Notes under the pieces: model-generated
The model's input: the letters and a program-made list of their open reading frames with translations, nothing else
What the model was told of the DNA's origin: nothing
The model's database searches: none
Source: Niastella koreensis GR20-10
Lineage (GTDB): Bacteria > Bacteroidota > Bacteroidia > Chitinophagales > Chitinophagaceae
Assembly (NCBI RefSeq): GCF_000246855.1
Contig: NC_016609.1
Span: 6,460,744-6,524,743 of the forward strand
Length of the DNA: 64,000 nucleotides
Reading direction: 5' to 3'
Part shown: positions 1,836 through 62,004 of the stretch, in pieces
Position numbering within the stretch: position 1 is the stretch's first letter
Layout of the letters: each line of letters starts with the position of its first letter
Program-made: the position numbers and the translations under genes

Positions 1836-1937
1836 CTGTTATTAGGTTCTCAGGTTATTAAGTTCTTAGGTTCCAAACCCAATAACTTAATAACCTAAGA
1901 ACTTACAAACTCAATAACCTGATAACTTACGAACTAT
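1836..1937. repeat. period-8 degenerate array with inverted halves between convergent genes
   Basis: On the minus strand the sequence reads as successive octamers (TAGTTCGT, AAGTTATC, AGGTTATT, GAGTTTGT, AAGTTCTT and so on), then turns over near 1873 into the inverted unit (AACCTAAG, AACTTAAT). The two halves can form a long imperfect hairpin. The rhomboid stop codon (TAG, 1934-1936) is part of the first octamer. It fills the whole gap between two convergent genes, so bidirectional termination is plausible. Confidence 0.8.
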
Positions 1938-2710
1938 ATAAATCTTCCTCTGGAAGCCTTCGCCACTCTCTTCCTCGAAATATAATCCTTGCCAAACCAG
2001 CCTACTAATAACAAACCAACAATAAACCCGCCAATATGCGCGGCATAGGCAACACCACCAGCGTCATCGCCGCCTAAAGCGCCTAAGCCGTTCACTACCT
2101 GGAAGGCAAACCAAACGCCTACGGCGATAAAGGCCGGAACCGAAATGATAATAAAGAAGGTAAGCAGATGGACCCGCTTACCGGGGAATAATCGCAGGTA
2201 AGCCCCCAGCACGCCGGAGATAGCGCCCGAGGCGCCCAGGCTGGGGATCAGCAAACTTGGGCCAAAGATCAAAGTGCTGAACACATGGCACAAACTGGCC
2301 AGTGCCCCACATAACAAATAAAAGAAAAAGTATTTTATATGGCCCATCGCATCTTCCACATTATCGCCAAAGATCCATAAATAGAGCATGTTCCCGGCCA
2401 GGTGCGCAATGCCGCCGTGCATAAACATAGAGGTAAATAAGGTAAGAAAAACCGGGATGTTGGTGGGCCCTAAACCCGGGTATTCGGTAACATTCCCGGT
2501 AATGGGATCCTTCTCCATCAATGACTGGGTAACAATATCGCGGCCGGTCAGGATCTCGGCAGGAACGGTGGAATAACCCAGGGTTACCTCGGAGTTATGA
2601 CCCCATCGCTGCCAGTATATAAACACAAATACATTCAACGCTATAAGCAGGTAATTCACTATAGGAAAAGTTTTCCTGTCTCTGTTGTCATCACCAATGG
2701 GAAAGACCAT
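1934..2710 (-). CDS. rhomboid-family intramembrane serine protease
   Basis: The 258-residue polytopic membrane protein has the rhomboid signatures: HGGIAHLAGN (98-107; the histidine/asparagine of TM2), GASGAISG (159-166; nucleophile Ser161) and a late AAHIGGF segment giving the catalytic partner His225. Between TM1 (about 17-33) and the HGG helix there is a loop of some 60 residues, typical of larger rhomboids. It would cut single-pass membrane proteins within the inner membrane; substrates are unknown. The catalytic dyad is intact, so an inactive homologue is unlikely. Its stop codon lies inside the 8-bp repeat array. Confidence 0.92.
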   Translation of the reverse strand: MVFPIGDDNRDRKTFPIVNYLLIALNVFVFIYWQRWGHNSEVTLGYSTVPAEILTGRDIVTQSLMEKDPITGNVTEYPGLGPTNIPVFLTLFTSMFMHGGIAHLAGNMLYLWIFGDNVEDAMGHIKYFFFYLLCGALASLCHVFSTLIFGPSLLIPSLGASGAISGVLGAYLRLFPGKRVHLLTFFIIISVPAFIAVGVWFAFQVVNGLGALGGDDAGGVAYAAHIGGFIVGLLLVGWFGKDYISRKRVAKASRGRFI

Positions 2711-2758
2711 ATCTTTTTACCAAATTTAGGCAAAAGATGTAACGGGTTACTAAATACC

Positions 2759-2838
2759 GGTTGCAGGTTACAAGTTTCAGGTTACAAGGCCTGGGTAGTT
2801 CGTTTTCCCTGCAACCTGTAACCTGCAACCTGCAACGG
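2759..2838. repeat. period-7 array, inverted halves
   Basis: The left half is GGTTGCA, GGTTACA, AGTTTCA, GGTTACA (2759-2786). The right half is the complementary CCTGCAA, CCTGTAA, CCTGCAA, CCTGCAA (2808-2835), separated by about 20 nt. It lies between the TonB receptor's 3' end (stop at 2858) and the 5' end of the rhomboid gene, both on the minus strand. A hairpin with imperfect 30-bp arms is possible and could end the receptor transcript. Confidence 0.75.
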
Positions 2839-2857
2839 CACCATTACCCACAATTCA

Positions 2858-5407
2858 TCACTTTAATGTATAAGTAAGTGTAGTATAATAAAACCCACCT
2901 ATCTGCGGCCCGCCCAGGATAGAATAGTAATAATGGTTCAGGAAGTTGGTGGCGCCCAGTTTTACGGTAAATCCTGTTTTGTTAAATGCGTATTGCGCCA
3001 TGGCATCGGCATTGAAAACCGCCGGAACAGTTCCATTTACCAGGAACGACTGATAGTAGAAATTGCTTTGATACCTGGCCGATAAAGAAAAGCCCAGGCC
3101 CTTGTATACATTCGCGCCTCTTATGCCGCCGTTCACCATCCATTTGGGTGTATTGAAACCATCTTCCAGTCCGTCATTGGCGCTTGTTCTTTTCAACGTC
3201 TGGTAACTGGCATTTCCGAACAGGGAGTAGCGATTATCGATCAGGTACAACAGATCGATCTCGGTGCCATAATTATGAACAATGGTTTTGGAGTTGGTCC
3301 ACAGGCGATAGCGGGCCTGCTTATTTTTATCATACAGGTACGCAGGAATCTGGGCGCTGTCGGTAGTATTGGGTACACTGCCTTCGATCTGGGCAATAAA
3401 GTTTGAATAGAAATTGTAGTAGAAATCCACATCCACCGAGAACCGGCCGTTAAACAGAATGGACCGGTAGCCCACTTCAAAGGAGTGCATTTGTTCCGGT
3501 TGCAGATACGTATAGGTGTTATGCACCAAAAGGCCTTTATTCTTTTCAATGGCAGCGGCCTGGCTCAGTCCGGAGGTATTTACATCTTTATTCACGGCTG
3601 CGGTAAATGCGTCGATAGAGCTTTTCAACCAGGTGTTTTCAAATACCCCATTCGACATCACTTTCAATCCCCCTACCCTTTTTACACCACCGCTGTTGAT
3701 ATTGGAGAACCCTTCAAAGATGCTGGGGAACCGGTAACCGTTCTGATAAGAGAACCGCACAAAATCATTGCGGGTTAACCCGTATACGGCAGTAAGCCGG
3801 GGATTCCATTTCAAATTGAAATATTCATAACCGGTGCCACGCAACACAGCGCTTACCTGCAATTTATCGTGCAGCAATCTTTTTGAGGCTTGCACAAAAA
3901 GACCATAGCTGGTATAGTTTAAATTATGTCCTGAGTCGGTGGGATTGATAAAGTAATTTCCATCAGGTACAATGATATAGTCCCTGAAATCGGCGCCCAC
4001 ATGCAGATCAAAAGCGGTGTGCAATGCTTTACCCAGGTCAAACGATCCTTCGGTATGCACCAGGCGGGCTTTTACTTTTAAGGCCGCGCCAATGTCCCAG
4101 TTATTGATCTCCTGTAATTGTTTCAGTTTGTCTTTAAAAGCATCAGTGCCTGGCTGGTACCTGCCATTATCTGCCGCATCACGGGCCGCGTGCAGGGCGG
4201 CTGCCGCATCTGCTTTTGTTGAATAGGCCGTATTAAATGCATTGGTAAAATCTGCATACCATTTGTTGTTGTCTTTAAAACTCAGGTCCAGGGTTTCGGC
4301 CGCAGAGCGCAGGTTGTAAGAATGGCCGGTATTTTCTGAAGTAATGTATGCCCTTGCCTGAAACAGGGAATTCCTAAACTGCACAATATGCTGTTGCAAT
4401 AAATAATCCTGCAGGCGAAAACGGTTGGAACGTTGATACGTATTGTTCAGAAATGCAGTGCGGTAGGTATAAGAGAGCTGTGAATTTTCTGTAGGTCTGA
4501 AATAAAGCGATACATCACCCTTTACATTTTGCAGGTTGTAATCGGCTACATCGCGCTCGTAATAACCAGTGCGCGCCACCACGTAATTCTTTCCGGCCAG
4601 GGTAAGCGTTTTGCGGTTGGAGGATTCATTGCCATAACCATTTACGGCATCATAAGCCGGGTTATCGGCCCCATATAAATTGGTAGTAGCATTGCCGGTG
4701 GGGAACAGATCGCTCCGGTTATCGGCCACCCAGTCGTAGCCGCGGTTATATCCCGCATTTATTTTAAAAGCCCATTTTGTTCCTATAACCTTTGCCCAGC
4801 GCAGGTTGGTTTCGTTATACAACCGGGCCGATACATCATTGGGGTCGTTTACATGGTTCACGGCAATCTGTTGCTGTATGCTGAACCCCTGGGTGATGAA
4901 TGGATCTTTCGTTGTAAAGTTCGCCAGTCCGTTGGTAGCGTTCATGCCATATAAGGCCGAGGCCACCCCCTGTATTACTTCCACATGATCGATATCCAGG
5001 TCACCGGGTGATAACGCATTGGCAATGGGCGCACCAATATGGGGGCTTTGGTTATCGATATTATCTATCATTTGTACAAACCGCACATTGGTGGTATTGG
5101 AGAAACCCCGGGTATTGATGATCTTAAAACCCATGCCGGGTACGATCATATGCACGCCTTTCATAGTGCCAATGGCATCAAAGAAGTCGTGCCCTGTGGT
5201 CTGTTGTATTTGGGAATTGCTCAGTTTTGAGATGCTTACGGGAGCGGCGAGCTGCTTTTCCTGTAAGCGGGATGCGGAGATAACGATTTCCTGCAATACG
5301 TGTACTTTGTGAGTGGTGTCTGTTTCAGGTGTTTGTTCCTGCGCAAACAGCGTAATAGCCGATAAAGAACACGCTATCACACATAGCATCTTTTTATCAT
5401 AACCCAT
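2858..5407 (-). CDS. TonB-dependent outer-membrane receptor
   Basis: The 849-residue product has a signal peptide ending near TLFAQ, then a short linker, a TonB-box-like segment VLQEIVISASRLQEKQ, a plug domain (PVSISKLSNSQIQQ through VEVIQGVASALYGMNATNG), and a C-terminal beta-barrel ending in TTLTYTLK. Unlike the SusC proteins here it lacks the carboxypeptidase-regulatory-like N-terminal domain and has no SusD partner, so it resembles siderophore, cobalamin or metal receptors rather than glycan importers. The ligand cannot be told. An alternative start lies at residue 7. It appears monocistronic, with a terminator and repeats upstream. Confidence 0.85.
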   Translation of the reverse strand: MGYDKKMLCVIACSLSAITLFAQEQTPETDTTHKVHVLQEIVISASRLQEKQLAAPVSISKLSNSQIQQTTGHDFFDAIGTMKGVHMIVPGMGFKIINTRGFSNTTNVRFVQMIDNIDNQSPHIGAPIANALSPGDLDIDHVEVIQGVASALYGMNATNGLANFTTKDPFITQGFSIQQQIAVNHVNDPNDVSARLYNETNLRWAKVIGTKWAFKINAGYNRGYDWVADNRSDLFPTGNATTNLYGADNPAYDAVNGYGNESSNRKTLTLAGKNYVVARTGYYERDVADYNLQNVKGDVSLYFRPTENSQLSYTYRTAFLNNTYQRSNRFRLQDYLLQQHIVQFRNSLFQARAYITSENTGHSYNLRSAAETLDLSFKDNNKWYADFTNAFNTAYSTKADAAAALHAARDAADNGRYQPGTDAFKDKLKQLQEINNWDIGAALKVKARLVHTEGSFDLGKALHTAFDLHVGADFRDYIIVPDGNYFINPTDSGHNLNYTSYGLFVQASKRLLHDKLQVSAVLRGTGYEYFNLKWNPRLTAVYGLTRNDFVRFSYQNGYRFPSIFEGFSNINSGGVKRVGGLKVMSNGVFENTWLKSSIDAFTAAVNKDVNTSGLSQAAAIEKNKGLLVHNTYTYLQPEQMHSFEVGYRSILFNGRFSVDVDFYYNFYSNFIAQIEGSVPNTTDSAQIPAYLYDKNKQARYRLWTNSKTIVHNYGTEIDLLYLIDNRYSLFGNASYQTLKRTSANDGLEDGFNTPKWMVNGGIRGANVYKGLGFSLSARYQSNFYYQSFLVNGTVPAVFNADAMAQYAFNKTGFTVKLGATNFLNHYYYSILGGPQIGGFYYTTLTYTLK

Positions 5408-5470
5408 ATCTAAGCAGTTGTTTCGTTATTTCCTTAAATACACAACGCGAAGATAGGGGGTTTTAGGTAG

Positions 5471-5504
5471 AGTTGACCAGTTGACCGGTTGACCAGTTTA
5501 CCAG
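5471..5504. repeat. period-8 array (short copy)
   Basis: Four octamers AGTTGACC, AGTTGACC, GGTTGACC, AGTTTACC. It is the inverted counterpart of the array at 5608-5671; the terminator hairpin 5544-5576 lies between the two. Confidence 0.8.
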
Positions 5505-5543
5505 GAAGAAATCCGGGCAGCAGGCAGTAGGCTGAAAAATTTA

Positions 5544-5586
5544 AGGGCGAGAACCAGGAAACCCGGTTCTCGCCCTGTTTTATTTT
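5544..5586. terminator. intrinsic terminator after the SusC/SusD operon
   Basis: A perfect 12-bp stem (AGGGCGAGAACC, 5544-5555; GGTTCTCGCCCT, 5565-5576) with a 9-nt loop. T-rich sequence follows on the plus strand and TTAAATTTTT on the minus strand. It lies about 100 nt past the SusD stop and upstream of the TonB receptor, so it separates the two minus-strand units. Confidence 0.85.
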
Positions 5587-5607
5587 ACATCTCAGTTTTG
5601 CCCGCTA

Positions 5608-5671
5608 TCAACCTTATCAACGCCATCAACTTGTCAACTCGTTAACTGATCAACTGGTCAACTGGTTAACT
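5608..5671. repeat. period-8 array abutting the SusD stop codon
   Basis: About eight octamers built on TCAAC/TTAAC (for example TGATCAAC, TGGTCAAC, TGGTTAAC). The array ends 3 nt before the SusD stop at 5675. Related copies are at 22168-22252, 36590-36640 and 46883-46982. Confidence 0.8.
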
Positions 5672-5674
5672 CAA

Positions 5675-7225: not shown

Positions 7226-7244
7226 TATACCTGGATTGAAAGAT

Positions 7245-10367: not shown

Positions 10368-10403
10368 TGTATAATTTCGGTTTTGTGCAATAGGCGGCCT
10401 GTC

Positions 10404-10430
10404 CGCCATCCCGATAGCTATCGGGAGGCG
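10404..10430. repeat. perfect 18-bp palindrome in the SusC leader
   Basis: TCCCGATAGCTATCGGGA (10409-10426), flanked by CGCC/GGCG. It lies between the FecR stop (10464) and the SusC start (10367) on the minus strand, so it would form a hairpin in the SusC leader. The arms recur at 13330-13346 and 24644-24659 with different loops. Confidence 0.75.
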
Positions 10431-10463
10431 AGATAATTTGCCTAAGAGATAACTGATAAATTT

Positions 10464-11504: not shown

Positions 11505-11613
11505 GCCCTGTGCTTTTTTTTATTATCTCACAACCCGCCATTTCCCCCCATGCCCTCCCCGATAAAAAAAATCATTTCATTTTAAGTTTACCATATCTTC
11601 ATCATAAGATAAT

Positions 11614-11644
11614 ATTGAGTTTTTTTATATTGCGGATACTTTTG
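11614..11644 (+). promoter_or_regulatory. Bacteroidota-type promoter before the ECF sigma gene
   Basis: ATTG (11614-11617), 19 nt, then TACTTTTG (11637-11644), matching TTTG-N19-TAnnTTTG. Transcription would start near 11651, which is downstream of the early in-frame TTG codons and bears on the choice of start codon. Confidence 0.5.
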
Positions 11645-13307: not shown

Positions 13308-13324
13308 TTATTTGTAATAGAATG

Positions 13325-13360
13325 GGCCGTCCCGATTACATCGGGACGGCTTTTTTATTT
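13325..13360 (+). terminator. intrinsic terminator after the coiled-coil lipoprotein
   Basis: GCCGTCCCGAT (13326-13336), loop TAC, ATCGGGACGGC (13340-13350), then TTTTTTATTTTGT. The minus strand shows AAAATAAAAAA before the hairpin and weak T content after it, so it mainly serves the plus-strand gene. It carries the TCCCGAT/ATCGGGA arms also found at 10409 and 24644. Confidence 0.9.
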
Positions 13361-13531
13361 TGTACCCGTCGTCCGCGTGCCGCTGAAGCTTTAGCGTAGG
13401 CGGGCAAAAAAACCCGCCGGCAGGTGCCAACGGGTTAGCTCTGATGTATCGGTGAACAAGACCTGTCAGGTGCGCTTCAACATCTTGCCTGACCTGCAAG
13501 CCGGGGCGCACCTGACAGGTCTTATTGTACA

Positions 13532-14284: not shown

Positions 14285-14295
14285 TATGGATGTTT

Positions 14296-16397: not shown

Positions 16398-16406
16398 ATA
16401 AGAGGT

Positions 16407-22167: not shown

Positions 22168-22252
22168 ATCAACTTCGTCAACTCTGTCAACCTCCTGGTT
22201 AACCGGTCAACTGGTTAACTGGTCAACTCTACCCACTATATCAACTTCACCT
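22168..22252. repeat. period-8 array abutting the GntR stop codon
   Basis: Octamers on TCAACT/TTAACT with an internal CTCCTGGTTAACCGG. The final residues of the GntR protein (KLI) and its stop codon at 22236 fall inside the array. Confidence 0.75.
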
Positions 22253-24643: not shown

Positions 24644-24659
24644 TCCCGATTTATCGGGA
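24644..24659. repeat. TCCCGAT/ATCGGGA stem-loop between susD and SGBP genes
   Basis: Perfect 7-bp arms with a 2-nt loop (TT). Third copy of the element seen at 10409 and 13330. In an operon leader it may stabilise the upstream mRNA or lower downstream expression. Confidence 0.65.
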
Positions 24660-24683
24660 TTATCGAATTATCACATTATCACA

Positions 24684-26252
24684 TTAGAACCCACTGTTTT
24701 GGTCTATGTCAATCTCGTTATTGGTATCCAATTCCCGCTGGGGTATTGGCAGCAGGGGCCGGGTTATAATGTTCTGCTGGAGGTCGGTCAGCAGCACGGC
24801 CGGTTTGAACTTTTTATAATGCGCATCGTATTCCGACGCATAGTACCCCTGCATGGTGGTCACAAACTGACCGGTACGCGTAATGTCGAACAGGCGGTGG
24901 TTCTCAAACGCCAGCTCAATCCTTCTTTCATCCAGTAATTTGATAAGGAAGGTAGTACTGGTGATCGCTTCTGTACCTGATGCCGGGTACTGATAAAAAG
25001 CGGCCGAGAAACTACCGGTACCGGGATATACCCCTGCGCCCGCCCGCGTGCGGATGCGGTTGATAATGTCAACCGAAACAGGATCAAAACCCAGCGCTTC
25101 CGCTTTCATCAGCAACACATCGGCAAACCGGATCACCGGGAAATCGTTTTCCGCATCGTTCTTCAACATTACCGGCGACAGGAATTTCTTTACATAATTC
25201 AGCGTATTGTATTTATCAATGGTAGCCGCTTTGCGTTTATCGGCAAAACCTGTTGTGGGAACAATGTATTTGGAAACCATATTATCGGTAGGATAATTCA
25301 ACCCCGAACCGTTCCCGTTTAAAATGGCGCTGCCACTGTTCAATGCGGCAAAGGAATTGGCCATATAATTACCCAGGCCCAGTCCACCCGCCTTATACCG
25401 TACAGCAAAAACAATTTCCTTATTCATTTCATTGCCGATGCTGAACACATCGGCATAGTTGGCCAGCAGGTCGTAACCGCTGTTGTTGATCACATCATCC
25501 AGCAACGGCAGGGCATCGGTTTTGCGGTTAGCGGTGAGGTATACTTTTGCCAGCAGCGATTTGGCAGCCCAGGTAGTTGCCCTGCCCAGGTCTTCCTGCG
25601 CCATGGCGCTGTAGTTTTTCGGCGTCATCCAGTCCTTCGCCGCCTGCAGGTCGGCCGTGATCAGTTTATAACATTCTTCTACGGAGGAGCGGTTGATCGA
25701 TTTCAACGCAGCAGGATCTTCTGACCGGGTAAGAATAAACACCCCGCCAAACAAACGCACCAGGTTAAAGTAGTGGTACGCTCTGATGAACAGGGCCTCA
25801 CCCGCCAGCTGTTTGCGTTGCACGTCGTCCATTTGCGCCGTTGGTTCGCCCAGGGTGATCTGTCCGTTGGCATAATCCACGCCCAGGCTTCTGAGTACAT
25901 AGTTGGCGCTGCGGATATTTTTATAGGTATAGTACCAGTAGTTATACACCTGGCTGTGCGAGGAGTTCTCCAGGTAGGTATTCAAATCGTTCAACTCAAT
26001 ATTGGCTACCGAGGTACTGCCCGGCGATCCCTGTTTGGAAACATCGGACCGCAGTTCGGTCATCATCCATTCTGTTTCCAATGGTTTCTGCATGCCATTG
26101 TAACAACCGGTGAGCGCTACTTTTACTTCGTCATAATTATGGTAATAGTTCTCAACCGTTACATTCGATTGTGGTTTAAGATCTATGATCCTGTTACAGG
26201 CGCCAAGGCCTGCAACGAGTGTTATTATAGAGAGTTGTTTGAACCAATTCAT
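24684..26252 (-). CDS. SusD-family alginate-binding lipoprotein
   Basis: The 522-residue product has a lipoprotein signal GLGAC (cysteine 19), the N-terminal NYYHNYDEVKVALTGCYNGMQ region, RKQLAGEALFIRAYHYFNLVRLFGGV in the TPR-like part, RFADVLLMKAEAL and LLDERRIELAFENHRLFDITRTGQF at the C-terminus, all in SusD order. It pairs with the SusC encoded 26 nt upstream. Given the PL6/PL7/PL17 genes downstream, its ligand is inferred to be alginate or its oligomers. Confidence 0.93.
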   Translation of the reverse strand: MNWFKQLSIITLVAGLGACNRIIDLKPQSNVTVENYYHNYDEVKVALTGCYNGMQKPLETEWMMTELRSDVSKQGSPGSTSVANIELNDLNTYLENSSHSQVYNYWYYTYKNIRSANYVLRSLGVDYANGQITLGEPTAQMDDVQRKQLAGEALFIRAYHYFNLVRLFGGVFILTRSEDPAALKSINRSSVEECYKLITADLQAAKDWMTPKNYSAMAQEDLGRATTWAAKSLLAKVYLTANRKTDALPLLDDVINNSGYDLLANYADVFSIGNEMNKEIVFAVRYKAGGLGLGNYMANSFAALNSGSAILNGNGSGLNYPTDNMVSKYIVPTTGFADKRKAATIDKYNTLNYVKKFLSPVMLKNDAENDFPVIRFADVLLMKAEALGFDPVSVDIINRIRTRAGAGVYPGTGSFSAAFYQYPASGTEAITSTTFLIKLLDERRIELAFENHRLFDITRTGQFVTTMQGYYASEYDAHYKKFKPAVLLTDLQQNIITRPLLPIPQRELDTNNEIDIDQNSGF

Positions 26253-36529: not shown

Positions 36530-36589
36530 TTTTACATTTCAAGTATATCAACTGTATCAACCCTATCAACCTACATAAGCTTATTCTTA

Positions 36590-36640
36590 CTCATTAACCC
36601 GTCAACCTGTCAACCTGTTAACCTGTCAACTGATCAACTC
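36590..36640. repeat. period-8 array abutting the GHL10 lipoprotein stop codon
   Basis: Units TTAACCCG, TCAACCTG, TCAACCTG, TTAACCTG, TCAACTGA, TCAACTCA; a weaker relative (ATATCAAC, TGTATCAA) extends back to about 36545. The stop codon at 36639-36641 is part of the last unit. Confidence 0.8.
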
Positions 36641-39755: not shown

Positions 39756-39787
39756 TGTTGAAGATTTATTATTCTTTGTAATCAGCA

Positions 39788-39828
39788 ATAGACAATTGGC
39801 AAATTGTCTATTGTCAATTGCCTATTGA
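39788..39828. repeat. period-7 array abutting the SusD stop codon
   Basis: On the minus strand: CAATAGG, CAATTGA, CAATAGA, CAATTTG, CCAATTG, TCTATTG. It includes an inverted CAATAGACAATT/AATTGTCTATTG pair. It starts 2 nt after the SusD stop (39830). Confidence 0.7.
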
Positions 39829-39829
39829 T

Positions 39830-46643: not shown

Positions 46644-46655
46644 TGCAGCTTTCAT

Positions 46656-46959
46656 TTACGTGGATGGTCAATGGTAATGGTCTGGTGCTGCAAGCTTTTG
46701 GCTGCAAGCAATCGTTTGGAATACAAGGCAGAGGGCAGAAGGCAAAGGGCAAAGATGAAAGGCAAACGGCAGAAAGAAATCGACAATCGGCAATTGGCAA
46801 TCGGCAATCCGCGACGCGGCCTCCTTTATCAACTCTATCATCTATCAACCACCTACTTCATTCCCCTAACATTCATCTTTCCCGTTAACCTGTCAACCTG
46901 TTAACTCGTCAACTTCCTTTATCAACCGTGTCAACTCTATCAACTTCCTGGTTAACTGG
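46656..46959. repeat. 304-nt gap built mostly of period-7 and period-8 arrays
   Basis: A 7-bp array runs over about 46725-46809 (GGCAGAG, GGCAGAA, GGCAAAG, GGCAAAG... GGCAATT, GGCAATC, GGCAATC). Octamers of the TCAAC/TTAAC type cover 46826-46852 and 46883-46982 and run into the AGE epimerase gene. No gene or clear promoter was seen in the gap. Confidence 0.75.
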
Positions 46960-48192
46960 TCAACTGATCAACTGATCAACTCCCTCCAGCGTTTTCCAAA
47001 CCTGGTACAACGCCCTTGGAATATGAAAACATCCTTTCCACTTCCCTCCTTTCTGATCCAGCAATACTTCGCCCTGGCGGTTGAGGTAACCGAACCATTC
47101 GCCGTATTGTTCATCACGAAAATGCGCCCAGGTATAGTCGTGTACTTTTTTAAACCATTTCCAGCAGCGTTCATCGCCGGTTAATTGATAGCCTTTCGCA
47201 AGGGCTACCAGCGCTTCGGCATGTACCCACCATAATTTCTGGTCCCACTCCAGTTGCTGCGGGGGATAGCCAAGCACATCCATGAAATAAAGGATGCCGC
47301 CATATTTTTTATCCCAACCGTATTCGAGCGTATGCAGCATAATGTCACAGGCTTTTTTAATCAATGCGGCATCGTTCATACGTTTGCCCAGGTCCATAAT
47401 AAACCACATGGCCTCGATGGTATGACCGGGATTGATAAGCCGGCCTTCAAAGCTGTTGCTGAAATCGCCATTGGGATGCACGTTCTCGAGGATCAATCCC
47501 TGCTCCTGTTTGTAAAACACGTCCATCACTTCACTGATAACGAAGGGCGCCAGTTCATTCACCCGGGCCGTACCAATAATATGTTCCAGCTCCAGCGACA
47601 GGTTGCACAGGATCATGGGCAAACTAAAACTCTTAAGCGGGCGGGTGCCGGGGTAAGCTTTGTTATAAATGCCTTTCCAGTTATGCTGGCGGCGAATGAT
47701 ATTTTCAAAAGTGGTGACTGCAATTTCCTTATACCGGTCGGCAGGGATGGCTTTATCGAGCGAGGCAAAGGCCATGGCTGCAAAGCAATCGCTGAAGATG
47801 TTATAGGGCTGAACCAGGGGTTTGCCTTCAGCGGTAAGGGAGAAGTACCAGTTGCCTTCAGCATCGCGGCCATGTTTCTCCATAAATTCCGCACCATGAA
47901 GGGCCATGTTCAGCCAGCTGTCGTTTTTCTGTACATTATTATACATGTAGCTGAAGCACCATACTTCGCGGCCCTGTAACCACATGAATTTATCGGTATC
48001 ATATACTTTACCATCGCGGCCCAGGCAGGTGAAATAGCCGCCATGCTGTTCGTCTTTACTGTATTTAAGCCAGAAGGGCAACACACTCTCAAGCAGTTCC
48101 CGGCGATAGAGGGGGGCATAATACGCCGGGGTACCTTCGCTGGCGGGCATAGTCTCCGCTACAAGGTCTACATTCCTTTCATCAGCAGTCAT
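46960..48192 (-). CDS. AGE-family N-acylglucosamine 2-epimerase-like protein
   Basis: The 410-residue cytosolic alpha/alpha-barrel protein has the AGE/RnBP landmarks LQGREVWCFSYMYN, GRLINPGHTIEAMWFIMDLG and KLWWVHAEALVALAKGY. Members interconvert N-acetylglucosamine and N-acetylmannosamine, or act on glucose/mannose or cellobiose; motifs favour the N-acyl-hexosamine group but do not settle it. It is the promoter-proximal gene, divergent from the ROK regulator. The last residues VDQLIS and the stop codon are encoded by the 8-bp array. Confidence 0.87.
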   Translation of the reverse strand: MTADERNVDLVAETMPASEGTPAYYAPLYRRELLESVLPFWLKYSKDEQHGGYFTCLGRDGKVYDTDKFMWLQGREVWCFSYMYNNVQKNDSWLNMALHGAEFMEKHGRDAEGNWYFSLTAEGKPLVQPYNIFSDCFAAMAFASLDKAIPADRYKEIAVTTFENIIRRQHNWKGIYNKAYPGTRPLKSFSLPMILCNLSLELEHIIGTARVNELAPFVISEVMDVFYKQEQGLILENVHPNGDFSNSFEGRLINPGHTIEAMWFIMDLGKRMNDAALIKKACDIMLHTLEYGWDKKYGGILYFMDVLGYPPQQLEWDQKLWWVHAEALVALAKGYQLTGDERCWKWFKKVHDYTWAHFRDEQYGEWFGYLNRQGEVLLDQKGGKWKGCFHIPRALYQVWKTLEGVDQLIS

Positions 48193-49605: not shown

Positions 49606-49652
49606 TTTTAAGTTCAGCGTTTTAAGTTTAAAGTTCTGGGTTTCAGGTTTTT
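49606..49652. repeat. period-7 array after the ROK gene
   Basis: Units AAGTTCA, GCGTTTT, AAGTTTA, AAGTTCT, GGGTTTC, AGGTTTT, starting within 5 nt of the stop codon. Confidence 0.65.
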
Positions 49653-49709
49653 CAATTAGTTAGTTATTAGGGTTTTAGGGGCAGTTTTCATTTTTCTGGC
49701 CCCTTTGGC

Positions 49710-50072
49710 GTCCGGATTGTACCGGAATGGGCATGGGATTGTAGCGCAGTACTCAGGGAGTTCTCTGAGGATTGTCTGAGGGTTGTCTGGGAATGGTCTA
49801 AGCACACTAGTATATCCTGAGAATATCCAGAGTGGCTGCAGACAATACCCAGCGCATATCCCTGCCAGTTTGCTACCATTCCACTACGCTCTGAACCGGG
49901 ATCTATTGGATAACACTGCCGGGATTGAGCAGGGACTCAGCCGGACCACGTTCGCAAATGCTGGCCAAATCCTTCGCAAATTTGCGAAGAAACCTAAGGG
50001 CCGTCTAAGAGGAGTTGCGAAGGAGTTGCGAAGAAACCCTCACAATCATTTAACTATCATTAAATTATAGTA
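49710..50072. repeat. degenerate 11-bp periodic array of about 33 units
   Basis: Cutting the sequence every 11 bp from 49710 puts related words in phase: GGATTGT at units 1, 3 and 6; CTGAGGATTGT then CTGAGGGTTGT; ATATCC at units 10, 11 and 14; CAAAT in units 23-25; CGAAGAAACC twice, exactly 44 bp apart; ATCATT in two neighbouring units. Neighbouring units are more alike than distant ones. Since 11 is not a multiple of 3 this is not coding, and an open frame at 49783-50070 is rejected for that reason. Confidence 0.6.
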
Positions 50073-50520
50073 GTCCGTTTCTCCAGCTAACCAGTTGGCC
50101 AGTTACCTCATCTCAACTGAAGCAGGACAACAGGGAATTATTCACTATAGCGTTATAGAAAACTTTAGCAATAGGTTTTGGAACAAAATACCGAAAGTGA
50201 TATTTAAATAGAAATTAATGATTTCTATATCGATATAGAAATCGATACAGATTATTCATTCATATATTCCTCTACAAGGTTAGCTGACCTCCCTTCATTT
50301 AATCAGGTTTACATGTAAATTGAAGGCCTCCCGGCAACAGGCGGCCGGTAAAATCCGGCAACCGGGTCCCGGTCTATTGTAGCTTGTAACAACTTCCGCT
50401 TTTAACTCATTTTAATTCTAAAAAACAGGGCATCTACCCTGATATTTATAAATATTATAATTATGTTTGTCATAATTAATAATAATTTTTATTTACTTCA
50501 TCTTTTTTATACTAATTATT
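50073..50520 (+). promoter_or_regulatory. palindrome-rich upstream region of the secreted-protein gene
   Basis: Visible elements: GATTTCTATATCGATATAGAAATC (50220-50243) written as two 12-bp arms, a perfect 24-bp palindrome with a third TAGAAAT arm at 50209-50215; TTTACATGTAAA (50308-50319); ATATTTATAAATAT (50442-50455); and AATTATG-TTTGT-CATAATT (50459-50477). The last contains TATGTTTG (50462-50469), a good -7 element. No gene is seen. A LacI-type repressor encoded downstream is the obvious candidate to bind one of these. Confidence 0.55.
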
Positions 50521-51729: not shown

Positions 51730-51743
51730 TTTTTCAATCTGAG

Positions 51744-51785
51744 GCCTTTCATGCATAAATATTAATTAATTTATGCGTGAAAAGC
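51744..51785. promoter_or_regulatory. long inverted repeat before the LacI gene
   Basis: Arms TTTCATGCATAAAT (51747-51760) and ATTTATGCGTGAAA (51769-51782) match at 13 of 14 positions around the spacer ATTAATTA, and GGC/GCC extend them. No T-tract follows, so an operator is more likely than a terminator. It fills most of the gap between the secreted-protein gene and lacI. Confidence 0.6.
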
Positions 51786-51795
51786 CCAGGTATTC

Positions 51796-52806
51796 ATGGA
51801 ATCAGTGAACATAAAAAAGCTGGCCCAGCTTCTTAATTTATCAATAGCTACCGTATCAAAGGCATTGCGTGATAGTTACGACATTAGCCAGGAAACCAAG
51901 GACAAGGTATTGGCCCTGGCCAAAGAGTTGAACTATCAGCCTAATCCCCATGCCAGTTTTCTGCGAAAACAGAACAGCAAAACCATCGCCGTCATTATAC
52001 CGGAGATTGCCAATAACTATTTTACCCTGGCCATCAATGGCATTGAATCGGTAGCCCAGGAAAAAGGCTATCATGTGATCATTTATTTATCGCACGAAGA
52101 TTTTCACCGCGAAGTGGCCTTTACCAAATTATTACACACCGGCCGGGTAGATGGCGTGCTGATCTCCGTTTCCAGCACTACAACTGATTATACTCATTTG
52201 CATCAGTTGCAGGACAAAGGCCTGCCCATCGTTTTCTTTGACCGGGTTTGTGAGCATTTCAACACCGTAAAAGTTACTACCGATGATTACCAAAGCGCCT
52301 ACCTGGCAGCCAGTCATTTAATAGAACAGGGTTGCAAACGCATTGCCCACCTGGCTATTTCTCAAAGCCTGTCTATTGGCAGTAAAAGGGCCAAAGGCTA
52401 TCTACAGGCCCTTCAGGATAATGGCATTACGCCGGCTGCATCGTTGTTGATCGAATGCACCAATGATGATGAACAGGATGTTAAACTGATTAGAGATCTG
52501 TTAGAACAACAACAACCTGATGGCATCTTTGCTGCCATTGAACGCTACGCCATTGCCGGTTATGAGTTGTGTGACTTGTTGGGTTTGAATATTCCCGGTG
52601 ATGTAAAGATCATTAGCTTTAGCAATCTGCAAACGGCCTCGCTGTTAAATCCTTCCCTGTCTACCATTACCCAGCCTGCTTTTGAAATGGGCCGCGAAGC
52701 GGCAAGTATGTTGTTGAAGAAGCTGGAGAAGAAAAATTTTCAGTTGCCTGATGAGAGTATTGTGATTCAATCGAAGTTGATTGCGCGGAAGTCGACTATG
52801 AAATAA
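51796..52806 (+). CDS. LacI-family transcriptional regulator
   Basis: The 336-residue protein has an N-terminal LacI helix-turn-helix (3-55; NIKKLAQLLNLSIATVSKALRDSYDISQETKDKV) with the hinge-helix region PNPHASFLRKQ, and a periplasmic-binding-protein-like ligand domain (from about 60, KTIAVIIPEIANNYF). It probably regulates the secreted-protein gene upstream and itself through the inverted repeat at 51744-51785. The ligand is unknown. Its stop codon is followed immediately by a 7-bp array. Confidence 0.92.
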   Translation: MESVNIKKLAQLLNLSIATVSKALRDSYDISQETKDKVLALAKELNYQPNPHASFLRKQNSKTIAVIIPEIANNYFTLAINGIESVAQEKGYHVIIYLSHEDFHREVAFTKLLHTGRVDGVLISVSSTTTDYTHLHQLQDKGLPIVFFDRVCEHFNTVKVTTDDYQSAYLAASHLIEQGCKRIAHLAISQSLSIGSKRAKGYLQALQDNGITPAASLLIECTNDDEQDVKLIRDLLEQQQPDGIFAAIERYAIAGYELCDLLGLNIPGDVKIISFSNLQTASLLNPSLSTITQPAFEMGREAASMLLKKLEKKNFQLPDESIVIQSKLIARKSTMK

Positions 52807-52879
52807 GTTCAGAGTTCCTAGTTCAGAGTTCATTTCTCTGTTTTTCATTTTTCATTCTTCATTTCTTTGTCCTCTTCAT
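52803..52879. repeat. period-7 array joining two convergent gene ends
   Basis: Units AAGTTCA, GAGTTCC, TAGTTCA, GAGTTCA, TTTCTCT, GTTTTTC, ATTTTTC, ATTCTTC, ATTTCTT follow one another without a break. The array fills the gap and enters the 3' end of the flavoprotein gene, encoding its last residues (KEMKNEK). Confidence 0.75.
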
Positions 52880-54464: not shown

Positions 54465-54499
54465 GAAATAGGGGTGTGAAAGTAATATAAATTTTCCAC

Positions 54500-56898: not shown

Positions 56899-56903
56899 TG
56901 ACT

Positions 56904-57010
56904 GCAATCGTTTACGGAAATTTCAATGGCTTAAGCGCTTCAAACTTGGTAAAAATTGATGGAATCGTTTTCAGAATAAGATGATTTATTTACTGAAACG
57001 TTTTCGTAAA
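56904..57010. promoter_or_regulatory. LacI-type operator cluster between lacI and heparinase-like gene
   Basis: TTAAGCGCTT (56931-56940) has the central CG palindrome of LacI/CcpA-type operators. Three further words share an ATCGTTT/AACGTTT core: AATCGTTTACGG (56906-56917), AATCGTTTTCAG (56963-56974) and GAAACGTTTTCG (56995-57006). The last is close to a palindrome. The cores are 57 and 33 bp apart. Confidence 0.55.
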
Positions 57011-57123
57011 AAAGCGGGCGGCAGGCGCAACTGTTTTTGTGTGGCAGTCCATCTTAAAGGGTTAAATTTAACGAGCGCCCGCCAATGACGCCGGGCAGGC
57101 TTCACCTAATTACTTACTGCTAT

Positions 57124-59070: not shown

Positions 59071-59080
59071 TAACAGCAGG

Positions 59081-59146
59081 CCTAAAGGTTAAAGCTGAAA
59101 GCCTAAAGCAACACCGCTTTAGGCTTTCAGCTTTGGGCTTTTAGCT
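59081..59146. terminator. period-7 array forming a perfect 19-bp stem between convergent genes
   Basis: The arm at 59091-59109 (AAAGCTGAAAGCCTAAAGC) pairs perfectly with 59116-59134 around a 6-nt loop. Both arms are themselves built of heptamers (AAAGCTG, AAAGCCT). It lies between the stop codons at 59070 and 59156 and should end transcription from both sides, though T-tracts are short. Confidence 0.7.
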
Positions 59147-59155
59147 TATTACATA

Positions 59156-60193
59156 TTAATCATTATCTACTTTAGGAGTAACCGGATTAAACTCAAACAT
59201 ATTATCCAAATAGAGTGTACCGGTTTGGCCGGTTAACACAAAGGCCCGGTTCTTTACGGTAAAGGCAACAGCGCCTTCGCGGGTCCTGGCTTCAAAGCCG
59301 GTATACTCTTTCCAGGTATCTGCATCGGCATCGTAAGCCCAGGTACTGGCGGCATACGATCCGTTTATACCCGTGGCGATATACGCATATTTATCCCGGG
59401 TAAAGGCTACGGCATTCTGCCTGGCAATAGTTGTATAGTGATCGTCGTAGGAATCATTGCTGAAATTATACAAAGGACGTTTGGTGGTCCACTGGTTATG
59501 ATCGGCATCGTATTCGTACAGTTCTTTTTGAACTTCGGAATTATTGGTGCCGGTGACTAAATAACCTTTATTGTTTAAGGTAAATGCAACGCCCTGGTAG
59601 GTCTTGTGTGCAAAGCTGGCTTTTTCTTTCCACTGAAATCCCCTGGGCTGGGTAGGATCAAATTCAAAACAATCATTAAATGCCTTGTTGCCATCATAGC
59701 CGCCACATACATACGCTTTGCCATTAATTACAAATGCCGCTGCATCATACCGGGCATCGCCAGGCAGTGAATCTTTTTCCGTCCAGCTATCTCCCACCGG
59801 ATCATACTCCCAAAAGTCTTTCAGGTTATCATCACTTTTAGTATCACTGTGGTAACCGGAGCCTACATAACCTTTTCCATTGATGGCAAACGCTACCGCG
59901 CTGTTGCGGCCCATGGATGGAACCGGTGCTTTTTTGGCCCAGTTCCCATTGGTTACATCAAAGGCATACATATCGTTATAGTTGCCGTTTTTTGATACGC
60001 CCGTTAATACATAAGCGATATCATTAATAACAAACGATACGGCTTCGCTTCTTGAATCGCCTCGGAAATCGGGGGCGGTGCTCCAGTTGCCGGTAATATT
60101 ACCGGAGCTGTCATTGGGCTTATGACAAGCCATCGTAATACAGGATACGCACATGATAAATAAGAGTACAGGTTGGGTGTAACTTTTTCGCAT
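59156..60193 (-). CDS. kelch-repeat lipoprotein
   Basis: The 345-residue product has a lipoprotein-like signal (ITMAC, cysteine 23) and six kelch blades, seen as repeats of the type NDMYAFDVTNGNWAKKAPVP, LKDFWEYDPVGDSWTEKDSLPG, FNDCFEFDPTQ, QKELYEYDADHNQWTTKRPL, ASTWAYDADADTWKEYTGF and LDNMFEFNPV. Each blade is preceded by a VAFxINxKxYVxxG strand. A six-bladed beta-propeller results. Kelch lipoproteins in glycan loci may bind ligand or act as sugar mutarotases (NanM-like); there is no direct sign of catalysis. It follows the DUF4466 gene after 228 nt. Confidence 0.85.
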   Translation of the reverse strand: MRKSYTQPVLLFIMCVSCITMACHKPNDSSGNITGNWSTAPDFRGDSRSEAVSFVINDIAYVLTGVSKNGNYNDMYAFDVTNGNWAKKAPVPSMGRNSAVAFAINGKGYVGSGYHSDTKSDDNLKDFWEYDPVGDSWTEKDSLPGDARYDAAAFVINGKAYVCGGYDGNKAFNDCFEFDPTQPRGFQWKEKASFAHKTYQGVAFTLNNKGYLVTGTNNSEVQKELYEYDADHNQWTTKRPLYNFSNDSYDDHYTTIARQNAVAFTRDKYAYIATGINGSYAASTWAYDADADTWKEYTGFEARTREGAVAFTVKNRAFVLTGQTGTLYLDNMFEFNPVTPKVDND

Positions 60194-60323
60194 ACTTAAT
60201 AAAGTTTGCTTAAAACTATCCCGTTAGTTTACTAATGGCGTCTTAAAATCGATTACTTAGTTGCGTTTATGGATTGAAGTGGAGATTAAATCTGTTAGTG
60301 AGGTTTTGTCATGAAAAGTTGCA

Positions 60324-60426
60324 TAGTGAGTTGTCAGTAGTGAGTTGTGAGTGAACTCGCGATTATTCAGAAATCTGACAAGTCGGGAACCCACTCACAA
60401 CTGACAACTCACAACTGACTACTACA
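60324..60426. repeat. period-7 array with inverted halves after the DUF4466 gene
   Basis: Left half 60324-60356 (GTGAGTT, GTCAGTA, GTGAGTT, GTGAGTG) and right half 60389-60426 (ACTCACA, ACTGACA, ACTCACA, ACTGACT). The DUF4466 stop codon at 60422 is the edge of the right half. Confidence 0.75.
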
Positions 60427-61411
60427 ATGTATACCGCTTAATACCAACCACCGCATTCTTGGTAGTAGTACTGGCCGTGTTAAAATAAACGTAGGCGCGG
60501 TATTTATGATCGGTGGTTTCTACCCATACGCCGGCTTCCTGTTTCAGGTTGATGGCGTAATTGGGATCGTTTGTCATATTCAGTTGCTGAAAATCGGGGT
60601 CGTCTATATAGATCCCATACTGCATCTGCGCCAGGTTGTAATCCTGCAGGTTAAATACTTTTCTTACATAGGTGCTTTTGTTTACGCCGGTGGGCAGGGT
60701 AACACCCGGTAAATATTGCGGATCGGCGGCAGGCGATACCAGGGCGAAGTTAAAGGCGCTGGTGGTAATGTTGCGGTACAGGTAAACCAGGTCAATGCTG
60801 CCGGCCCTGGCGGCGGCATCCGCTGCATTGTACGCCGCCATATCAGCGATGGAGATGTACATCAGTCCGCCATCGGTAAGATTAATCCCTTTTTTCATGT
60901 CCATTTTTGCAATGGTATACGGTCCCATTTTATACGAGACCGTTTCACCATCGCTGCTTTGAGCTGAAAAAGTAAAGGATACGGATTGTCCACGGGCCTG
61001 TTCAGGAATTACATAGTAATACCGCAGCGTAGCTGCATTGGTGTCTTTATTAAAGGTAACGGTGGTTACATTTTTACTGGTTACGGACGCGCTGCCTACG
61101 GGGATGCCTATATCAACCCCGGAATTATTCGTGTAGTACGAATTATTTTCCATCCAGGTGCCAACGGCACCATCGATGGAAGCTTCCACGGTGGCATTGG
61201 TAAGCTTGCCTTTTTCGGCAATGATGGCCATGGCATAGGCAAACTCAATGGTTTGGCCAACTATATTAGGCCCCTGCGTTCTTTTTATACAATCGTTTTG
61301 CAGCGTATCTTTTGGCGTGGGGATCTTGTAGTCCTTTTTGGTACAGCTGCTTAATGAAAACAGGCCCCCGAGTAGCAGAGTGCTTATTGTATTTATAAGT
61401 TGAAGTCGCAT
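60422..61411 (-). CDS. DUF4466-type lipoprotein
   Basis: The 329-residue product has a lipoprotein signal (SLSSC, cysteine 23, then TKKD). The body matches the DUF4466 pattern known from heparinase-containing Bacteroidota loci: NDCIKRTQGPNIVGQTIEFAYAMAI, ATVEASIDGAVGTWMENNSYYTNNSGVDIGIPVG, then VVGIKRYTL at the end. It is predicted to be a surface lipoprotein that assists glycan capture. The family assignment is by recall. The order SusC, SusD, small lipoprotein, DUF4466, kelch runs in one direction. Confidence 0.78.
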   Translation of the reverse strand: MRLQLINTISTLLLGGLFSLSSCTKKDYKIPTPKDTLQNDCIKRTQGPNIVGQTIEFAYAMAIIAEKGKLTNATVEASIDGAVGTWMENNSYYTNNSGVDIGIPVGSASVTSKNVTTVTFNKDTNAATLRYYYVIPEQARGQSVSFTFSAQSSDGETVSYKMGPYTIAKMDMKKGINLTDGGLMYISIADMAAYNAADAAARAGSIDLVYLYRNITTSAFNFALVSPAADPQYLPGVTLPTGVNKSTYVRKVFNLQDYNLAQMQYGIYIDDPDFQQLNMTNDPNYAINLKQEAGVWVETTDHKYRAYVYFNTASTTTKNAVVGIKRYTL

Positions 61412-61434
61412 AGTTTGTATGTTTTTCGTGAAAC

Positions 61435-61521
61435 GTGAAAGGCTGAACTACTGCCAGGATTCCCGACAAATTTCATCCGCGCTGCGGCGGTTTGCCGTTT
61501 CCCGTTTGCCGTTTGCCGTTA
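61435..61521. repeat. period-7 array at the end of the small lipoprotein gene
   Basis: The clear part is 61487-61521 (GTTTGCC, GTTTCCC, GTTTGCC, GTTTGCC, GTTATCG). The stop codon of the small lipoprotein (61519-61521) is inside the last unit. Upstream to 61435 only traces (GTGAAAC/GTGAAAG) are seen. Confidence 0.65.
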
Positions 61522-61914
61522 TCGTGGTTGAACAGTTATTAAAACCTGGTACGTTTTGCTGATCTGTCTGTTGCCTGAGATCACGGTATATTGTTTGGGA
61601 TTAGCCAGATCGGAAAAATCAACTTTGCCAACGATCTTGGGATCCAGCTTGCAATCGGTGGCCAGCGTAAACTGCGGGAACAGGTTCTTCAGATCGGTAC
61701 CGAACTGCACGGTCACATTTACCGTTTGGGCAGTAGTATCAATAACCGGCTGCTTGGTCAATACGGTTACATAATCAGCGCCCAGCAATTCAAAATTGCT
61801 TACATAGCACTCCTGCCGGGTTGTTATCAATAAGCCATCGCCGTCTACGGGATGGTCTTTGCTACAAGAGAAGACACTTAGTATTATTAAGGTGCTTATG
61901 ATTATACGTTTCAT
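61519..61914 (-). CDS. small DUF5018-like lipoprotein
   Basis: The 131-residue product has a lipoprotein signal (SVFSC, cysteine 17, then SKD) and one Ig-like domain of the DUF5018 kind: VSNFELLGADYVTVLTKQPVIDTTAQTVNVTVQFGTDLKNLFPQFTLATDCK ends with a KTYQVLITVQPR strand. The layout matches the N-terminal module of the larger lipoprotein at 38061-39755. It lies directly after SusD and is probably an accessory surface glycan-binding protein. Its start ATG is preceded by a T-rich run and a 7-bp array. Confidence 0.75.
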   Translation of the reverse strand: MKRIIISTLIILSVFSCSKDHPVDGDGLLITTRQECYVSNFELLGADYVTVLTKQPVIDTTAQTVNVTVQFGTDLKNLFPQFTLATDCKLDPKIVGKVDFSDLANPKQYTVISGNRQISKTYQVLITVQPR

Positions 61915-61929
61915 TTTTTCTTTTTTTTG

Positions 61930-62004
61930 AGTTCCAAGTTCAGAGTTCCGAGTTCAGAGTTTCGGGTTCAACCTGGAACCTGAAACTTTGAACTGATTAA
62001 CTGG
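61930..62004. repeat. period-7 array abutting the last SusD stop codon
   Basis: Units GAGTTCC, AAGTTCA, GAGTTCC, GAGTTCA, GAGTTTC, GGGTTCA, then an inverted half (ACCTGGAACCTGAAACTTTGAAC). It fills the gap between the SusD stop (62005) and the small lipoprotein start. Confidence 0.75.

Follow-up and report, generated by a model that had tools for sequence, protein, structure and literature searches.

Heptamer arrays at gene ends have been described before. Rehm et al. (2015) reported arrays of GGGAATC and GGGGA(C/T)T in Xanthomonas and Nostoc that lie on the sense strand within 50 bp of stop codons or overlap them, are rare between divergent open reading frames (ORFs), and form inverted pairs in 70 and 75 cases; in the cited passages they are discussed in terms of G-quadruplex formation and are assigned no function (PMC4692102). 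MacGregor (2015) reported TAACTGA heptamers in Beggiatoaceae, cyanobacteria and five Bacteroidetes, which in the main genome lie mostly just upstream of start codons (PMC4679880). Heptamer-derived satellite families have been noted (PMC6749651), and perfect inverted repeats are described as peaking 50-80 bp past stop codons across bacteria (PMC13155455). Here we describe arrays of 7- and 8-nt units in a stretch of 64,000 nucleotides (the window, G000:C1:6460744-6524743) from the single 9,033,684-bp contig of Niastella koreensis GR20-10 (G000). The arrays are anchored at stop codons and mostly paired as imperfect hairpins, they share position, pairing, strand polarity and, in most families, a core-plus-spacer unit make-up, and at one locus the words of both arms have changed in place. 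A first-pass annotation of the window had listed 14 stop codons with such arrays and had taken the link to stop codons as new; that link had already been published for Xanthomonas and Nostoc (PMC4692102).

Because 64 kb is too little for statistics, 40 further 20-kb stretches of the genome were added, giving 41 stretches that total 864 kb, or 9.6% of the genome. The first 464 kb of this sample (the window and 20 of the other stretches) contain 244 gaps of at least 30 bp (53 kb). Genes were called with a home-made codon-score caller, so that stop positions are exact and start positions approximate. Lag-7/8 arrays were scored at three thresholds: 12 (strict), 9.5 (looser, used for the 864-kb set) and 7.5 (loose, used for the stops named in the first-pass annotation); Tandem Repeats Finder (TRF) was also run on the repeats of the window. 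Ten dinucleotide shuffles of the gaps served as the chance control and 408 kb of coding sequence as the coding control.

At the strict score the segments in the 244 gaps number 27 for lag 7, 23 for lag 8, 19 for lag 14 and 14 for lag 16, with more at multiples such as lag 21; shuffle means are 0.0-0.1 throughout, and coding sequence gives one segment at lag 7 and two at lag 8. Other lags are nearly empty in the same gaps (none at 4-6, 10, 12 and 13, one at lag 3, three at lag 9), apart from seven at lag 11. The looser score finds 191 arrays in 123 gaps across the 864 kb, against 15 within genes. An array lies within 10 nt of 81 of 467 gene ends and of 8 of 507 gene starts (0-1 in shuffled gaps); in Niastella and some relatives, roughly one gene in six with a gap behind it has an array at its end. 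Neither outcome that the first-pass annotation had named as fatal, equal frequency at all intergenic positions or no 7/8-bp excess over shuffles, was observed. In same-direction gaps of the 464-kb set (68 arrays), the 10 nt next to the stop contain 25 arrays, where random placement gives 6.0 (maximum 18 in 5000 draws), and the 10 nt next to the start contain one, where 6.1 are expected. Array density is 0.164 across the first 20 nt past the stop and 0.006 in the 20 nt adjoining the start. Convergent gaps carry arrays most often (29/71, 864 kb), followed by same-direction gaps (81/325), with divergent gaps the poorest (13/91). Where the first array lies within 40 nt of the stop (n = 100), it overlaps the stop or starts no more than 3 nt past it in 64 cases. 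It is thus confirmed that the arrays are almost solely intergenic and clustered at stop codons; the shuffles and placement counts rule out chance or low complexity as their source.

The first-pass annotation missed three properties of the arrays: inverted pairing, units made of core plus spacer, and polarity. Of the 191 arrays, 103 pair with an inverted array elsewhere in their gap at a local score of at least 12; the reversed, uncomplemented control gives 6 and shuffled surroundings 0. For 29 arrays the gap contains another direct copy. The arrays are therefore arms of imperfect hairpins, and a view of them as direct repeats alone is ruled out. Among convergent gaps with paired arrays (n = 24), the hairpin reaches from stop to stop, within 15 nt at both ends, in 10 and meets one stop in 11 more.

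The words vary widely, as had been claimed, under a common period and placement: 101 distinct consensus units occur among the 191 arrays. The same unit is nevertheless shared by 149 pairs of gaps, against 10 expected from letter-permuted units. Twelve family templates, picked from earlier output, take in 140 of the 191 arrays, a procedure that favours the template letters; within most families 3-5 core positions are near-invariant over independent gaps (range 6-17) and 2-4 columns are free. The families, with gap counts, are GTT[ACT]TTA[AG] (8), GTTNCAG (15), GTTRACNN (17), TAATNNG[AC] (13), CAATNNN (7), AAAGCNN (11) and GTNAGTN (7); units of the GGCAAAC type are looser. Two gaps show the same division between species. 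In gap 39756-39829, compared in four species, the ATTG core has one change in 75 letters while three spacer columns vary, and in gap 2711-2857, compared in three, GTT is unchanged in the arrays examined while the following column takes all four letters. Neighbouring units mismatch at 20% of positions; for units 4-6 apart the figure is 30-32%, which suggests that units are duplicated locally. Two other candidate principles were set aside. A G3-quadruplex pattern occurs in 1 of 220 arrays (a G2 pattern in 20), which rules out G-quadruplexes as the basis of the arrays, and the word CTCGCGA, present in 4 of the 123 gaps with arrays and in 1 of the 364 without, is too rare for a conserved loop core to be a general rule and marks one family.

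The arrays have a fixed polarity: on the sense strand the G-rich arm adjoins the stop and the C-rich arm lies far from it, and this is repeated in genera with unrelated words. For the first array within 25 nt of the stop in same-direction gaps, the ratio of arrays with more G than C to those with more C than G is 39:14 in N. koreensis, 30:6 in other Niastella, 11:0 in the genus of G018 and 7:0 in the genus of G030; first arrays of convergent gaps give 28:2, 12:0, 11:1 and 3:0 in the same order, and the last, far array in those gaps is reversed (8:21, 1:15, 0:7 and 0:5). The 40 nt past array-free stops have no comparable bias (89:117, 35:40, 23:16 and 8:14). First arrays also have a purine excess (47:8, 24:11, 10:1 and 7:1), which is partly background since array-free ends have one as well in two samples (99:99, 48:26, 24:12 and 9:12 for the four). 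The words of G018 (AATTAGG, AAAATTG) and of G030 (GATGACG, GATGTTG, GTGAGACG) are unlike those of Niastella and the architecture is alike: same-direction arrays lie within 10 nt of the stop in 9 of 23 cases in G018 (1.5 at random, maximum 8 in 2000 draws) and 7 of 16 in G030 (2.1, maximum 7). In G016 the count is 5 of 13 (2.1, maximum 7) and the polarity ratio 3:2, the latter from arrays too few to judge.

The change of words in place was seen at the aro locus. Its first gap is flanked by helicase-like and aroF-like genes (named by eye from sequence), and inverted arms are kept there in all 11 genomes compared, 10 of Niastella and one of another genus, in three vocabularies. Arm scores are 17-24.5, with ten shuffles each at 13.5 or less. 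The split into arms maximises a genome's pairing with itself and so inflates within-species scores; means over blocks of vocabularies compare different species and are free of this inflation. When arms are paired across species, those of the same vocabulary score 16-20 on average and those of different vocabularies 7-13, so both arms changed words together. A one-letter difference (AATTTGAT versus AAGTTGAT) is borne by the units of a whole array. Homogenisation of arms within a locus was not seen as a general rule in the wider sample, from which this gap differs. The next gap of the locus has arrays in 9 of 10 Niastella. Some array positions are old.

All eight other Niastella sampled have arrays, at 5-60 per 100 kb (20 in N. 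koreensis). With 20 kb each, 5 of 14 other genera of Chitinophagaceae have some (G016, G017, G018, G025, G035), as does one of three sampled from other families of the order (G055). In the wider class and phylum, after 3 of 20 stretches were left out as too short (1-2 kb), 5 of 17 have at least one intergenic array (G060, G063, G069, G083, G104). Since most genomes outside Niastella are represented by just 20 kb, little weight attaches to zeros among them. Fifty kilobases of Escherichia coli K-12 contained no arrays. Gaps orthologous to those of the window were compared in five other Niastella. Divergent species pairs have arrays in 0 of 21 cases. Of 59 same-direction pairs with an array, both species use the same family in 16 and different families in 13, and in 30 only one species has an array; convergent pairs give 1, 5 and 9. 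The one-species counts are upper bounds because the score misses weak arrays, as it did for a GAAGTA-type hairpin that can be seen in G009 in gap 1836 and was counted as none. By eye, protein ends are alike with and without an array at about 11 of 16 array stops; at stop 46960 they clearly are not, and at 1934, 22236, 49605 and 52845 the ends differ or the case is ambiguous. A general effect of arrays in shifting stop codons is thus not supported. A triple of the GTTRACNN octamer has 377 matches in N. koreensis and 92 in G007 (both strands), 1-8 in five others of 117 family genomes, and in a phylum-wide draw occurs in one of 147 other genomes as a single perfect array. Separately, stretches L075-L078 of G004 contain long near-perfect (TTCTGCC)n arrays, and one array there grades from GTGAGTT through GTGAATC and GTGAAAC to GGCAAAC.

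Within the window, 12 of the 14 stops listed in the first-pass annotation have an array within 12 nt or across them at score 7.5, and two (1934 and 49605) are mixed cases. The weaker listed ones are 49605, 52845, 1934 and 62005; stops 24684 and 59156 carry arrays and were missing from the list. An unstranded hairpin of 8-nt units at 1838-1935 (GGTTATTA / TAATAACC words) fills most of the convergent gap 1836-1933. Its offset from stop 1835 is +2; at stop 1934 the strict array ends 22 nt off and TRF extends it to 1935. The orthologous gaps in G004, G002 and G007 have other word families. A minus-strand hairpin of 7-nt GTTNCAG units at 2760-2836 (arms 2760-2788 and 2808-2836), 21 nt past stop 2858, belongs to a family also present there in G009 and G002. 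GTTRACNN octamers form three minus-strand features. Inverted arrays at 5471-5504 and 5626-5671 (feature 5471-5671, stop 5675, offset +3) enclose an ordinary terminator-like hairpin (about 5545-5583) in gap 5408-5674, as also happens in G009 for gap 60134-60421; an array at 22197-22228 lies at stop 22236 (+7); and one at 36596-36639 overlaps stop 36639 (-1), with arrays of the GTTRACNN type in G004, another type in G007 and no gap in G002. Another 8-nt array on the minus strand, 24659-24686 (TAATGTGA words), overlaps stop 24684, and the orthologous gaps in G004 and G002 have no array.

The minus-strand CAATNNN array of 7-nt units at 39803-39827 (stop 39830, +2) has a core common to four species. 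In gap 46656-46959, minus-strand 7-nt arrays of GGCARAG and GGCAATC (46727-46754 and 46778-46812, together 46727-46812) lie distant from the stop, and an 8-nt array at 46948-46981 on the same strand crosses stop 46960 into the gene, whose final residues its units encode. Past stop 49605 there is a weak plus-strand 7/21-nt repeat at 49619-49635 (score 7.5 at +13; TRF period 21), with clear AGTTCAC-type arrays in the orthologous gaps of G002 and G007. Stops 52806 (-1) and 52845 (+12) share one unstranded 7-nt array of GTTCAGA words, 52806-52832, in a convergent gap of 38 nt. An unstranded hairpin of 7-nt AAAGCCN units, 59083-59158 (arms 59083-59109 and 59116-59158), lies between stops 59070 (+12) and 59156; two relatives (L059, L060) have no hairpin downstream of the 59070 ortholog, and N. 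yeongjuensis has a different one. At 60324-60424 (unstranded; stop 60422, -2) lies a GTGAGTN-type element whose CTCGCGA...TCGGGAACC core is flanked by arms at 60326-60352 and 60393-60423; copies of the element are dispersed over the genome. Finally, a minus-strand 7-nt array of GGCAAAC words, 61487-61520, overlaps stop 61519 (-2), and a minus-strand hairpin of 7-nt GTTCAGA units, 61930-61994 (arms 61930-61961 and 61970-61994, the latter weak at score 8.0), lies near stop 62005 (+10).

Other repeats were noted as well. Nine-nt repeats (TATCAACNC) adjoin the octamers at 36546-36571, 46920-46945 and other GTTRAC loci, and words of the CTATCAACC type are enriched in array gaps. Separate period-11 repeats (TCTGAGGATTG, AGGAGTTGCGA) occupy 49764-50033 of the window (gap 49606-50520), and lag 11 is above chance in the sampled gaps (7 segments versus 0.0 shuffled). 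Repeats of about 21 nt (GAAATCCTGGGAAAACG...) occur in array gaps at L009:8811-9062 and L096:14443-14822, two loci that are 78% alike over 148 columns. Also recurrent at gene ends is a hairpin that lacks the 7/8 period and has arms resembling ACCTGTCAGGTGCGC; it is found at 13308-13531 and in gaps of G009 and G004. An Rfam 15 scan of the window gave no match above gathering score.

Our preferred reading, to which we give a probability of about 0.4, is that the arrays are continually rewritten hairpins retained for a role at transcript ends and tolerated in the absence of the hairpin nuclease SbcCD. Slippage of units and template switching between units and arms would keep rewriting the words; once in the RNA, the hairpins would serve as 3'-end structures, stopping or insulating readthrough or protecting the mRNA end. 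At some genes they would replace classical terminators, and genomes without SbcCD would tolerate them. We favour this reading because of the preference for gene ends over starts, the inverted partners, the polarity, the arms kept in all genomes at the first aro gap and the near-invariant cores. It is also favoured by the scarcity of classical terminators at array ends (11/111, versus 59/329 at other ends, p = 0.051; 9/329 when the latter are shuffled) and by the stronger predicted folding of the 120 nt past the stop (mean z -3.1 at array ends, n = 59, versus -1.9 at others, n = 49). A third such point is that neither SbcD nor SbcC models have a match at E <= 1e-10 in any of 10 Niastella (for SbcC, among at most 18 candidates scored per genome). 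In E. coli, SbcCD cleaves long hairpins in DNA; a genome that lacks it may thus be able to keep the array hairpins. SbcD was found in one of 24 Chitinophagaceae searched (G014). Absence of SbcCD as a sufficient cause was rejected, as array-poor relatives lack it too.

Several results weigh against this reading. T-tracts are rare: among 78 same-direction hairpins a T-rich end is seen after 7, and on the opposite side of 2. Most gene ends have no array at all. Sense-strand mismatches in same-direction gaps are G.U in 66 cases and A.C in 74, giving no sign of selection on RNA pairing through wobble, and with the rare T-tracts this means that intrinsic termination is not shown. A terminator a few base pairs behind a gene is reported as almost fully repressed in E. 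coli (PMC4824070), which counts here because array hairpins begin at the stop. Orthologous gaps often differ between species, with arrays swapped or absent. An arm's own mate is its best match in 6 of 72 cases, not above arrays at other loci, and at the second aro gap arms match no better within species (16.8) than across them (15.5). For 13 GTGAGT-type copies (the window copy and 12 of 17 listed ones, five odd or reversed copies being excluded), the covariation term is slightly unfavourable (+0.87), with 3 of 17 predicted pairs changed on both sides. Array-poor members of the family are also without SbcCD, and the SbcD-bearing G037, G046 and G050 have weak GTGAGT-model matches. The earlier suggestion that the arrays shape mRNA 3' ends therefore gains from folding and polarity and loses from T-tracts and wobble; the suggestion of a repair or copying origin gains from the joint unit change at the first aro gap, and no enzyme for it was identified.

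That origin is central to the main rival, a somewhat unlikely one in our judgement, in which the arrays are functionless, self-perpetuating by-products. RNA is first free of ribosomes just past the stop; where it is G-rich it would hybridise with its template as an R-loop and leave the other strand exposed to slippage and fold-back copying. Arrays and inverted arms would grow until coding sequence halts them, and they would persist without SbcCD. Polarity and abutment at the stop fit such a process, as do the missing wobble preference, the joint rewriting of both arms at one gap, the greater likeness of adjacent units than of units 4-6 apart, the stop-to-stop hairpins in 10 of 24 convergent gaps, the failure to find SbcC or SbcD in Niastella, and turnover in many gaps. 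Fixed cores with varying spacers, seen over many loci and, in two gaps, across species, are not expected from plain slippage, however. Arms kept in 11 of 11 genomes at one gap and the recurrence of units in 149 gap pairs against 10 expected also speak against a by-product without function. Wider still, and rather doubtful, is the idea of a transcription-linked "unit-writing" process past stop codons in several phyla, in which architecture (period 7-8, inverted arms, the G-rich arm first, anchorage at the stop) is inherited and sequence is not, and of which the G-quadruplex heptamers of Xanthomonas and Nostoc would be special cases; each lineage would then have its own repeat vocabulary, and whole hairpins would switch words in step.

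It is improbable that the arrays are dispersed palindromic mobile elements, of the kind of repetitive extragenic palindromes (REP), bacterial interspersed mosaic elements (BIME) or miniature inverted-repeat transposable elements (MITE), tolerated mainly at gene ends. The GTGAGT-type element has this character: at many loci its arms are spaced about 60 or 67 nt apart (a difference of one unit) around a common non-repeat core, and its pattern has 143 and 128 matches on the two strands, versus 34 and 24 when read backward. Its covariance model matches 26 of 59 genomes at E <= 1e-4, including all 10 Niastella (at most 59 candidates scored per genome); in L173, from another genus, the arm words surround a different loop, so a match need not mean the same core. 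With the GTTRACNN counts, these copies indicate that some families were amplified in single lineages and at least one was dispersed as copies. Other families also match between loci across their loops (84% over 142 nt in one case), and the sites after the 59070 orthologs in L059 and L060 are hairpin-free. The remaining arms belong to many short-unit families. Unrelated vocabularies under one architecture, and words that change in place at the aro locus, count against mobile copies.

REPs adjoin genes for REP-associated tyrosine transposases (RAYT), and a hairpin lies directly beside a Y1 transposase-like gene in 9 of 10 Niastella. This gene occurs once per Niastella genome at E <= 1e-4, always at the aro locus, and scores 53.8 bits against an IS200 model (cut-off 55) and 24.2 against a REP-transposase model (cut-off 80). 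The hairpin, however, is on one side only and is simply the one at the stop of the preceding aroF-like gene, and a second, weak Y1 gene of N. koreensis has none beside it. The distribution of Y1 matches among genomes is not that of GTGAGT-model matches: G010, G011 and G024 have Y1 and no model match, and G015 has two model matches and no Y1. A RAYT/REP driver of the arrays is thus unsupported rather than refuted. As observations in their own right, the IS200-like Y1 gene (L165:1435-1863 and orthologs L216-L225) has been retained at the aro locus by all 10 Niastella and by G011, as a domesticated gene would be, and at L166:1183-2672 there are two adjacent genes, the scanned one just below the cut-off of the REP-associated tyrosine transposase model, with no 7/8 arrays alongside.

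It would be a surprise if the arrays were platforms for a nucleic-acid-binding protein that reads cores at a 7-8 nt spacing: such a protein would require cores like those of most families, 3-5 nt long among free spacers and, in two gaps, kept between species, but about a dozen cores per genome would demand many proteins or a very loose rule. Very improbable are back-up stops, by which a period that is not a multiple of 3 would supply stop triplets in all frames after the gene, since the 46 of 100 first arrays with a stop in all three sense frames (18 antisense) compare with 34 (sd 4) under a unit-permuted null, 18 of 100 have no sense stop, and the equally suited periods 4, 5, 10 and 13 are nearly absent.

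If, as we prefer, the hairpins shape mRNA ends, many gene ends in one group of bacteria would be set by fast-rewritten structures that finders of hairpin plus T-tract miss. If they are products of transcription-coupled slippage, gene ends would be hotspots of repeat writing with a measurable polarity, and the old puzzle of heptamer over-representation in bacteria would become testable. The replicated polarity and the in-step change of words lead to quantitative predictions for transcript-end mapping, R-loop mapping and strain comparison.

Among known systems, intrinsic (Rho-independent) terminators are likewise inverted repeats past stop codons; the Niastella hairpins differ in their imperfect arms, in often beginning at the stop and in having a T-rich end in 7 of 78 same-direction cases, so that the combination of hairpin and T-tract is mostly absent. 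The start at the stop also sets them apart from the peak of inverted repeats at 50-80 bp (PMC13155455). REP and BIME are likewise extragenic palindromes in many dispersed copies; in the cited passages no arrays of 7-8 nt units are mentioned (PMC3733652, PMC2817692, PMC3116915), and a RAYT link is not established for Niastella. The GTGAGT-type element is likewise a dispersed extragenic palindrome of one sequence family, and the other arms are many families of short units. The short tandemly repeated repetitive (STRR) sequences and long simple sequence repeats (Mazel 1990 and Mrazek 2007, as cited in PMC4692102 and PMC4679880) share the heptanucleotide excess in bacteria; as described there they have no hairpin architecture, and the near-perfect tandem copies of STRR are not found here, where adjacent units differ at 20% of positions. 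The TAACTGA repeats are intergenic direct heptamers too, with 13 sets overlapping the stop of the upstream gene, but as described consist of one fixed word, with one indirect repeat against 169 direct sets (PMC4679880).

The closest system is that of Rehm et al. (2015), whose arrays likewise have period 7, lie between genes near stops with a G-rich sense strand, combine conserved and freer unit positions, vary in length and sequence between relatives, and include some inverted pairs (PMC4692102). N. koreensis itself has tandem intergenic 7-nt (also 8-nt) units near stops, rare in divergent gaps and G-rich on the sense strand; G-quadruplex potential is lacking (G3 and G2 patterns in 1 and 20 of 220 arrays). 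Where the earlier arrays are described as one G-quadruplex word type per genome, Niastella has at least a dozen families, with the G3 pattern in one array, as well as two periods (7 and 8), inverted partners for 103 of 191 arrays, and replacement of words between species (PMC4692102). In open-licence PubMed Central (PMC) literature we found no report of inverted heptamer or octamer arrays at stops in Bacteroidota, or of intergenic repeats in Niastella. That hairpin, place and orientation stay while the letters change points to an uncharted way of shaping or writing gene ends. What was known is the stop-linked heptamer array; what is new is its many vocabularies, its hairpins without G-quadruplexes, the concerted change of words and its presence in Bacteroidota.

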